NCBI RefSeq assembly: GCF_002563855.1
Contig: NZ_PDJQ01000001.1
Location: 1,054,001 to 1,118,000, forward strand
DNA: 64,000 bases
Reading direction: 5' to 3'
DNA from: Tepidiforma thermophila
GTDB taxonomy: Bacteria; Chloroflexota; Dehalococcoidia; Tepidiformales; Tepidiformaceae
The translations under genes were made by a program, and so were the position numbers. This document shows, piece by piece, positions 13,752 to 36,582 of this stretch. A model generated the notes under the pieces. The model ran no database searches and was not told the origin of the DNA. It saw only the letters and a program-made list of their open reading frames with translations. The first letter of the stretch is position 1; every line of letters begins with the position of its first letter.

Positions 13752-14697
13752 GCGTGGCGAACACCGGGACTTGAGCCGCCGAGCGGCGCATGCTTGGCAG
13801 GGTCGCCGGGCTGGGGCCGCGCCGCAAACGGCCCGCACCGACCGCGACCGCATCGCCTTGCATGTGCTGCCCCACCTGGGAGACCGGCGCCTGACCGCAC
13901 TCCAGCCGCTCGAGCTCGAACGGCTATACCGGCGCCTGCTCGACGCGGGGCTGGCGCCCAGCACCGTACGCATCACCCACAAAATCGTGCACAAAGCGCT
14001 GGCCGATGCCGTCCGGCTGGGCTACCTCGCGGCCAATCCTGCTGACCGTGCCGCTCCGCCGCGGGTAGTGCAGGCAACGGCCGGCACCGTCCTGGGCCCC
14101 GAGGAGGCCCGTCGCCTGCTCGAGGCCGCCCGGGGCGACCGGCTCGAGGCCCTCGCCGTCCTCGCCCTCACCACCGGCATGCGGCAGGGAGAACTCCTCG
14201 CGCTCCGCTGGCGCGACGTCGACCTCGAGGGCGGCACCATCCGCGTCACCGGTTCCCTTGCCTGGGTTGCCGGCGAATACCGCATCCAGGAGCCGAAGAC
14301 GGCCAGCAGCCGGCGCGCGGTGGCGCTCGGCGAACTTGCTCGTTCGGCCCTCCGCGCCCACCGCCAGCGCCAGCTGGAGGAGCGGCCGCGGGCGGGGCCG
14401 GCATGGCATGACCTCGACCTTGTCTTCTGCCGCGAGGACGGCTACTACCTCAACCCCAAGGCGCCCCTGGACTGGCTCGAGAGAACGCTTGCGCGTGCGG
14501 GGCTCCGCAAGGTCCGCTTCCACGACCTCCGGCACACGGCGGCCACGCTGGCCATCGCCAGCGGCGTCGACGTCCGCACCACCGGCGCCCTGCTCGGCCA
14601 CGTCTCGGCCAAGATGACCCTCGACACCTACGGCCACGCGCTCCCCGGCGCCGCCGAGGCCGCGGCACAGGCCATCGACGCCGCCCTCCGCGGCTAA
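13618..14697 (+). CDS. Tyrosine recombinase (phage-type integrase), N-terminally truncated
   Basis: The frame is open from 13618, but recognisable integrase sequence starts only near 13800. From there a partial core-binding domain (RIALHVLPHLGDRRLTALQP) leads into an intact catalytic domain. The catalytic residues are all present: Arg in TTGMRQGELLALRW, Lys in EPKTASSRRAV, HxxR in HDLRHTAATLA, His in LLGHVSAKMT and the nucleophile Tyr in TLDTYGHAL. The arm-binding domain and most of the core-binding domain are missing, and no good start codon precedes the homologous part. It is probably a deletion remnant, though an unusual start cannot be excluded. Confidence 0.75.
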   Translation: MSSSRASGAGCSPTSSAGRRPSYRSPRPRSSSTTSLSRGGGPAAERGEHRDLSRRAAHAWQGRRAGAAPQTARTDRDRIALHVLPHLGDRRLTALQPLELERLYRRLLDAGLAPSTVRITHKIVHKALADAVRLGYLAANPADRAAPPRVVQATAGTVLGPEEARRLLEAARGDRLEALAVLALTTGMRQGELLALRWRDVDLEGGTIRVTGSLAWVAGEYRIQEPKTASSRRAVALGELARSALRAHRQRQLEERPRAGPAWHDLDLVFCREDGYYLNPKAPLDWLERTLARAGLRKVRFHDLRHTAATLAIASGVDVRTTGALLGHVSAKMTLDTYGHALPGAAEAAAQAIDAALRG

Positions 14698-34947: not shown

Positions 34948-35709
34948 TCAGCAATCTGCTCCAATGACGCCTGCGCGGCGCACCGGCCCCCCGATCGGCC
35001 GCCGCTCGGGCACCCCCGCCCGCCGCGGATACCGCGCAGGGCACGCCGCGCGCTTCCGGAACAGTGCCACGCGCACCGTCTCGCTCACCTCCGGCCGCAT
35101 CGGCAGGATCGCATCCAGCTCGCATCCAAGCTCCGCCACCGCCGCTTCCGCAGCCGCGAGCTCCTCCTCCAGCCGGCTTCCCTTCGGCAACGCAATCACC
35201 CCGCCCACCGCGGCCAGCGGCGCAGCATACTCCAGCACCACCCGCAGCTCTGCCACCGCCCGCGCCGTCACCAGCCCGCAGGCCTCGCGCAGCGGGCCCC
35301 GCCCTGCCTCCTCCGCCCGCAGCGCGTGCACCGTCACGTTCGTGCACCCCAGCTCCCTCGCTGCCGCCTCCAGGAACCGCGCCCGCTTCTGCAGCGGCTC
35401 CACCAGGTGCACCTCCCACCCGGGCCGCGCGCACGCCACCACCAGGCCCGGCCAGCCCCCGCCCGTACCGATGTCGGCATACCGGAAGCCGGGCTCGCCG
35501 CCGACCGCCCCCTCCGCAATCCGCAGCAGCTCCAGCGATTCCCCGTACTGCCGCCGCACCGCCTCCACCGCCTCCACCGCTGTCAGCCGGCCAGCCTGCT
35601 CCCCCGCCTCAACCAGGCTCCAGTGCCGCCGAAGCCGGTCGATGGTCCCCTCGGCCGCCTCCGCCGCGAACAACCTCGCCAGGTCATCCCAATCCGCCAG
35701 CTTCTCCAT
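34948..35709 (-). CDS. rsmG: 16S rRNA (guanine527-N7)-methyltransferase RsmG
   Basis: The protein is 253 residues, slightly longer than the usual 210-240 because of a basic C-terminal tail. The SAM-binding segment YADIGTGGGWPGLVVACARP and the VTARAVAELRVVLEYAAPL block are RsmG hallmarks. It methylates N7 of G527 in 16S rRNA using S-adenosylmethionine. The start is set at the ATG at 35709, where homology begins (MEKLADWDDLARLFA); the upstream open frame runs through the divergent GreA-like gene and is a shadow. Confidence 0.92.
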   Translation of the reverse strand: MEKLADWDDLARLFAAEAAEGTIDRLRRHWSLVEAGEQAGRLTAVEAVEAVRRQYGESLELLRIAEGAVGGEPGFRYADIGTGGGWPGLVVACARPGWEVHLVEPLQKRARFLEAAARELGCTNVTVHALRAEEAGRGPLREACGLVTARAVAELRVVLEYAAPLAAVGGVIALPKGSRLEEELAAAEAAVAELGCELDAILPMRPEVSETVRVALFRKRAACPARYPRRAGVPERRPIGGPVRRAGVIGADC

Positions 35710-35739
35710 TGCGTGAAGCACAAACCCCCGCCCGAATGG

Positions 35740-35745
35740 TACAGT
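35740..35745 (+). promoter_or_regulatory. -10 element TACAGT giving a leaderless start
   Basis: TACAGT is followed by six bases and then the ATG at 35752. There is no Shine-Dalgarno sequence. The divergent rsmG start is only 42 bp away, so both promoters share this short region. Confidence 0.5.
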
Positions 35746-35751
35746 AGTCCC

Positions 35752-36582
35752 ATGACACAAACGCCCGCAGGAGCCACGACTACTCCGGTCACCCTCCGCG
35801 AAGCCCTCCGTCAATTCACCGCTTCCCTCAAACCCGCCGAACGCGAATACGCCGCCTACGTCGAAAAGTTCTGCAACGACGTCGGCCTCGACCGAATCGC
35901 CGCCGACCTTACCCCCGCCATCGTCGAGCAGTACGGCGAACGCAACCTCCGGCCCACCGACCCCAACGGCCAGCGCCGCCTCGACGCCCTTAAGGCCTGG
36001 TTCAGGTTCCTCAAAACGAAAGGCTACACCGAACGCAACCTCGGCACCGGCCTCCGCCTGCCGAAATCCAACGGCCCCCGCACCACCAGCGCCAGCCCCC
36101 GCGTCGTCGAAACCCCCATCGAAATGACCGCTGAGGGCATCGAAGCCCTCAAGCGCGAACTCGCCGACCTCGAGCGCCGCATCCCCGACCTCATCCGGGC
36201 CGTCGAAACCGCCCGCTCCGACGGCGACCTCCGCGAGAACGCCCCCTACCACGCCGCCCGTGAAGCCCTCGCCCTCGCCGAGAACCGCCGGCGCCAGCTT
36301 GAAGAATCCCTCAAGCGTGCCGTCGTCGCCGACCGCTCCGAACTCGACCACGACGTCGCCGCCATCGGCTCCGGCGTCACCGTCACCTTCCTCGAGCGCA
36401 ACATCCAGGTCACCTACCAGCTCGTCGGCCCGCGCGAAGCCAACCCCGCGGAAAAGAAAATCAGCGTCGAATCCCCTGTAGGCCGCGTCCTCCTCGGCCG
36501 CCGCGTCGGCGAAGAGGTCGAAGTTGAAGCCCCGCAGGGCACCATGCGCTACCGCATCGACGCCATCATCCACAACCCCTGA
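35752..36582 (+). CDS. GreA/GreB-type elongation factor with an N-terminal recombinase-like SAM domain
   Basis: The protein is 276 residues in two parts. Residues about 14-112 look like the core-binding (SAM-like) N-terminal domain of XerC/XerD recombinases: LREALRQFTASLKPAEREYAAYV, then DLTPAIVEQYGERN, then LDALKAWFRFLKTKGYTERN. Residues about 122-276 form a complete GreA: MTAEGIEALKRELADLERR coiled coil with SDGDLRENAPYHAAREA (acidic tip loop), then a C-terminal FKBP-like part with SVESPVGRVLLGRRVGEEV. GreA rescues backtracked RNA polymerase. Standard GreA is about 158 residues, so the extra domain is unusual. The recombinase catalytic domain is absent. Confidence 0.85.
   Translation: MTQTPAGATTTPVTLREALRQFTASLKPAEREYAAYVEKFCNDVGLDRIAADLTPAIVEQYGERNLRPTDPNGQRRLDALKAWFRFLKTKGYTERNLGTGLRLPKSNGPRTTSASPRVVETPIEMTAEGIEALKRELADLERRIPDLIRAVETARSDGDLRENAPYHAAREALALAENRRRQLEESLKRAVVADRSELDHDVAAIGSGVTVTFLERNIQVTYQLVGPREANPAEKKISVESPVGRVLLGRRVGEEVEVEAPQGTMRYRIDAIIHNP

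Follow-up and report, generated by a model that had tools for sequence, protein, structure and literature searches.

We found that one reading frame in the genome of Tepidiforma thermophila joins a core-binding domain of the type found in Xer recombinases, through a basic linker, to a complete transcript-cleavage factor GreA, and that this fusion is lineage-defining for the Dehalococcoidia, i.e. it is the standard GreA of the class. The gene lies on the forward strand at 35752-36582 of the window, which is the whole stretch of 64,000 nucleotides that was analysed; it starts with an ATG at 35752, encodes 276 amino acids, and its stop codon ends at 36582. The best explanation, held here with middling confidence, is that the protein is the working cleavage factor of the Dehalococcoidia and that the Xer-derived domain grips DNA, tethering GreA to stalled complexes. 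The first-pass annotation of this DNA had read a domain fusion at the same position; the fusion is real and the domain identities given there stand, the site targeting that it proposed is unsupported, and the annotation missed both the class-wide use of the fusion and the paralogs with a dead tip.

Domain architecture of the fused protein

We collected 93 orthologs, which were reduced to 66 non-redundant sequences and aligned as whole proteins (alignment A1) and as N-terminal parts (alignment A2). Orthologs across the order and the class are single open frames, and their presence across the order, class and phylum of Tepidiforma rules out an assembly artefact or a fusion confined to a single genome.

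The C-terminal part is a full GreA, as had been read from the sequence, with Pfam and NCBIfam matches above their cut-offs over residues 123-274. Specifically, Pfam GreA_GreB_N (PF03449) matched residues 124-192 (E 4e-20, 72 bits, cut-off 24.5) and GreA_GreB (PF01272) residues 199-272 (E 1.4e-24, 86 bits, cut-off 26.9), while NCBIfam greA TIGR01462 matched residues 125-272 with 147 bits (cut-off 139) and NF001263 scored 150 bits (cut-off 145). The coiled coil comprises residues 123-199 (36118-36348, forward strand) with helices at 127-155 and 164-189, and is followed by the globular, FKBP-like C-terminal domain at residues 199-274 (36346-36573, forward strand), the part of GreA that docks on RNA polymerase. 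Cleavage by E. coli GreA depends on D41 and E44; its coiled coil reaches the active site, while the globular domain sits on the beta-prime rim helices and does not enter the secondary channel (PMC7527559). The equivalents of these two residues lie in the catalytic tip D159-L-R-E162 (36226-36237, forward strand), within the letters D157-G-D159-L-R-E162-N of the window protein. D159 and E162 are invariant columns in alignment A1 (66 orthologs), and both equivalents were kept in 100/100 distinct fused sequences, including all 83 distinct fused sequences from Dehalococcoidia. Thus, the window protein has both Gre domains and the catalytic D and E of GreA (TIGR01462, PF03449, PF01272); it differs from GreA in an N-terminal recombinase-type domain of ~100 residues, a basic linker and a gene that is predicted to be leaderless. 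Long N-terminal additions to GreA are also found in the NCBIfam models PRK06330 and PRK14720 (model lengths 718 and 906, respectively); however, these additions are much longer, their match to the window protein is confined to the GreA part, and the NCBIfam scan of the window protein revealed no kinship between them and the recombinase domain.

The added domain spans residues 14-100 (35791-36051, forward strand), and its assignment to the SAM-like fold of Xer-type core-binding domains draws on profiles, the predicted model and structure matches. In single-sequence scans, no Pfam model matched the N-terminal part of the window protein, the NCBIfam matches to XerC and XerD were sub-threshold (E 0.02-0.14), and just 10 of the 66 members reached PF02899 at an E value of up to 1. 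By hmmsearch of the PDB with the A2 profile (66 sequences), a phage integrase N-terminal domain (3nrw, E 1.2e-6) was the sole significant chain, and hhalign of the added-domain profile against Xer proteins of the same class gave a probability of 97% and an E value of 1e-10. Chance resemblance to Xer is ruled out by the controls, in which the reversed profile reached an E value of 0.08 and ten shuffled profiles E values of 0.06-0.8. Moreover, when 20 relatives and the window's genome were searched with A2, the fusions ranked first and weaker matches fell at Xer-type recombinase loci, which were located independently with PF02899.

The AlphaFold model of the added domain consists of four confident helices (residues 15-25, 28-44, 55-65 and 73-90) with a mean pLDDT of 86 and a core above 90. 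The annotation had allowed for the N-terminal part failing to match the recombinase fold; instead, the best structural group was tyrosine-recombinase core-binding domains, with 3nrw (Z 12.2, 95 aligned, rmsd 2.3), XerD 1a0p (Z 10.7, 83 aligned, rmsd 2.3), lambda Int 2oxo (Z 10.1, 86 aligned, rmsd 2.3), XerA (Z 9.1) and MrpR (8a0a; Z 8.1), on a scale on which values below about 13 can be common among helical bundles. Foldseek alone gave no match under E 0.001 for the predicted domain. The recombinase kinship of the domain is therefore firm because of the sequence-profile result and not because of the structural Z scores alone.

As the annotation had noted, the catalytic part of a recombinase is absent: neither Pfam nor NCBIfam matched a catalytic domain (R-K-H-R-H/W-Y) in the window protein, in which GreA follows after residue 122, and recombinase activity of the fusion is excluded because this domain is missing. 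In total, the added domain shares the four-helix fold, the profile match and basic residues of the last helix with tyrosine-recombinase core-binding domains (XerC/XerD, lambda Int, 3nrw; PF02899, PF13495) but differs from them in having no catalytic partner, in being invisible to Pfam in the window protein and in being joined to GreA. This genome has five tyrosine recombinase genes, one of which lies elsewhere in the window, where positions 14092-14640 encode the catalytic domain of a tyrosine integrase (PF00589, 92.7 bits).

The two parts are connected by a flexible basic linker at residues 101-122 (36052-36117, forward strand), recognized from a drop in pLDDT and from charge counts. The full-length model had a pLDDT of 92.9 and a pTM of 0.63, with pLDDT values of 63-78 in the blocks covering residues 101-120; this pTM together with the local drop is the expectation for two rigid parts joined by a flexible linker.

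Start codon, distribution and unfused paralogs

The extended -10-like element TGG-TACAGT (35737-35745, forward strand) lies 6 nt before the ATG and is a predicted leaderless promoter. In 29 of 31 orthologs from the order, exactly 6 nt separate the end of a TANNNT box from the start codon, and 30 of 31 have the box at a distance of 5-9 nt, compared to a background of 2.9% at random ATGs of the same loci. This spacing, the pattern of leaderless transcripts, fixes the start of the fused gene at 35752. Within Tepidiforma, dN/dS was 0.11-0.44 for the N-terminal domain and 0.05-0.16 for the GreA half; judged by these ratios, purifying selection acts on the N-terminal domain, which is the faster-evolving of the two halves. 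The annotation had also considered that the ATG might be wrong and that only the GreA half is made; the TANNNT box, selection and conservation rule this out. The box at 35737-35751 raises the point that leaderless mRNAs may be common in Tepidiforma.

A survey of Dehalococcoidia gave a match in 288 of 294 genomes, most of them covering both parts in one frame. In a sample of 400 genomes of the phylum searched with profile A1, where fused status was counted by the span of the match, GreA was fused in 57/60 Dehalococcoidia and in 33/340 other Chloroflexota (15 families), and the remainder of the phylum had ordinary GreA. Between families, the added domain is 20-40% identical. In Dehalococcoides-like genomes (family f12, 99-100% complete), the fusion was the sole GreA in the 294-genome survey; one complete f12 genome had a second match in the 400-genome sample. 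Several candidates for a wider spread were rejected. Plasmid matches in Sinorhizobium and Tritonibacter that seemingly reached the N-terminal region are ordinary GreA in which the domain is absent; the one match labelled Proteobacteria (L050) is on a contig as long as that of a genome placed in Chloroflexota (G420); and horizontal spread by phages was discarded since a scan of viral_contigs contained no relative of the fusion. Literature searches gave no description of a fusion of an Xer-type domain to GreA, and the combination, which the annotation had likewise not recognized as a known system, is apparently undescribed in the literature searched.

Many Dehalococcoidia have, beside the fused form, an unfused GreA of about 155 residues, which answers the annotation's question as to whether a normal-length GreA is also present. 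In the window's genome, this paralog is encoded at contig positions 1959939-1960403 on the reverse strand and has a degenerate tip, which reads GSSQADAEY as opposed to GDLRENAPY in the fused form. In the main survey, none of the 43 distinct unfused Dehalococcoidia sequences kept D41, and 3/43 have D at position 44. By contrast, 16 of 19 unfused GreA from other Chloroflexota keep D and E. There are two exceptions in the class. One is a Dehalococcoidales MAG (L052:6001-6456), in which an unfused GreA on a long branch has an intact tip; either the added domain was lost there or the contig is a contaminant. The other is the unfused paralog of AH-958-type genomes, whose tip is D..D. Judged from tip residues, the fused form is almost everywhere the sole GreA with intact catalytic residues in the Dehalococcoidia. 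Since the fused proteins keep the acids while the unfused paralogs lose D41, transcript cleavage in the class is predicted to be the work of the fused protein, and the unfused paralog is probably a non-cleaving secondary-channel factor. The paralog resembles Gfh1-type non-cleaving Gre homologs in being devoid of the cleavage acids at the tip and may work similarly; it differs from them in that it groups with unfused Chloroflexota GreA in a tree.

In this tree, which was built from the GreA halves, the unfused Dehalococcoidia paralogs form one group (94/91) among the unfused Chloroflexota GreA, and the fused Dehalococcoidia proteins together with most fused rows from outside the class form the other side (100/98). 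Four fused rows (families f99, f122 and f133) fall between the two sides. If the root is on the unfused side, one fusion event accounts for all fused proteins; the tree is unrooted, and two separate fusion events are the alternative reading.

The divergent neighbour of the fused gene is rsmG (GidB), which encodes a 16S rRNA methyltransferase (34948-35709, reverse strand; Pfam GidB E 2.7e-29). This gene adjoins the fused gene in the window, in a second locus (L040) and, outside the class, in a third (L053), which suggests old vertical inheritance. Elsewhere, the neighbours are a cupredoxin gene or, in Dehalococcoides, genes for an oxidoreductase and an M50 protease. The fused greA of Dehalococcoides- and Dehalogenimonas-like genomes is followed within ~30 bases by the gene for an M50 protease with CBS domains (L118:1280-3246; L119:1187-3141), and the two genes are likely co-transcribed.

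Candidate roles of the added domain

Basic residues are strongly kept at positions of the added domain and the linker. In the last helix, R76 is basic in 91% and K81 in 100% of the fusions, compared to 90% and 66% in Xer, while the Xer-invariant arginine beside R76 is basic in 40% of the fusions. In the linker, R102 is basic in 100% and K105 in 92% of the fusions; the position of P104 is likewise almost always basic, and residues 96-119 have a mean net charge of +4.8 in the 66 orthologs. The conserved basic positions of the added domain would fit contact with the DNA backbone. The N-terminal core has an average net charge near +0.7 as opposed to +1.6 in Xer core-binding domains; with a core charge no higher than that of Xer and its faster evolution, specific DNA contacts are not evident from these comparisons, and DNA binding by a core-binding domain that lacks its catalytic partner may be weak. 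The N-terminal domain of XerH places its four-helix bundle in the major groove of DNA (PMC5241119). The conversion of a recombinase fold into a DNA-binding regulator has a precedent in MrpR (8a0a), the master repressor of the SPbeta prophage (PMC10516654). MrpR is similar to the fusion in being a non-recombinase regulator that reuses the core-binding fold; it differs in that a degenerate catalytic domain is still present and that its function is repression rather than transcript cleavage. Because of the conserved basic residues, the XerH bundle and the MrpR precedent, we favour DNA tethering with moderate confidence, with protein docking as its main rival.

In stationary phase, GreA of D. mccartyi CBDB1 (cbdbA743) carries strong acetylation at K17 (PMC7918482, Table 1), and this residue would be within the added domain if cbdbA743 is the fused form. 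The Dehalococcoides orthologs read have no lysine at position 17, and we therefore set this modification aside as evidence.

In the docking alternative, which is possible but somewhat doubtful, the added domain has lost DNA binding and is a protein-binding module for a lineage-specific surface of RNA polymerase or for another factor. The near-neutral charge of the core and the rapid divergence of the domain are consistent with this, but the basic residues at Xer-equivalent and linker positions would be needless for docking. A shortened variant in AH-958 single-cell genomes (L055, 6001-6360 region; L056) also bears on this question: it has the added domain and the coiled coil with an intact tip and a clean stop, and a C-terminal GreA domain is absent from the sequence before the next reading frame. 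If the variant is real, the normal GreA docking domain may have given way to the added domain, as if the N-terminal domain took over its function. However, this case is one lineage of single-cell genomes, and it needs care because one of the two genomes also has an N-terminally incomplete GreA with an intact tip (L237).

Site-specific recruitment of GreA, for instance to dif, to Xer complexes or to a set of chromosomal sites, is improbable. It would accord with the kinship of the added domain to the domain by which Xer recombinases recognize DNA, and the annotation had suggested recruitment to particular sites where polymerase meets replication, repair or Xer complexes; however, the neighbours of the fused gene (rsmG, cupredoxin, M50 protease and oxidoreductase) included no association with xer, dif or ftsK in the neighbourhoods examined, and the free divergence of the domain between families is unlike recognition of one conserved site. 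It is also very unlikely that the added domain is passive or autoinhibitory, or that the GreA half alone is made from an internal start. Such readings would accord with an ATG, GTG or TTG between residues 101 and 124 in 44/66 orthologs and with the unfused relative L052, whose tip is intact; however, an ATG is found there in just 7/66, the box precedes the fused start by 6 nt in 29/31 orthologs, and the domain is under purifying selection and kept across many families of the class.

A proposed tethered cleavage factor in Dehalococcoidia

The proposed tethering through the added domain is part of the following scheme. An ancestral greA duplicate would have gained an Xer-type core-binding domain at its N terminus. 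In the resulting protein, the coiled coil would enter a backtracked RNA polymerase through its secondary channel, and D159 and E162 would activate cleavage of the extruded RNA. At the same time, the added domain, on its basic flexible linker of ~20 residues, would grip the duplex DNA beside the polymerase, mostly through backbone contacts; measured from the N terminus of the coiled coil, the linker should in principle be long enough to reach this DNA. This grip would keep GreA on complexes that are stalled or engaged with DNA. The unfused original would have lost its catalytic acids and would either be kept as a non-cleaving secondary-channel factor or, as in Dehalococcoides, be lost. Tentatively, and with less assurance than for tethering itself, we propose that the class rescues transcription by means of a DNA-tethered GreA with which the old, non-cleaving GreA competes, and that the grip domain replaced the docking domain in one lineage.

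Gre factors are usually viewed as two-domain proteins that reach a stalled polymerase through the secondary channel alone. The fusion suggests an unrecognised way of attaching a rescue factor to DNA, and it clearly exemplifies the recruitment of a recombinase domain into the core machinery of transcription. It also raises the question of whether a DNA-held cleavage factor alters the speed or the place of the rescue of backtracked polymerases. Altogether, it appears that a whole class, some members of which respire organohalides and are used in bioremediation, depends on a GreA of three domains with a recombinase-derived module, while its usual GreA is without the catalytic residues.
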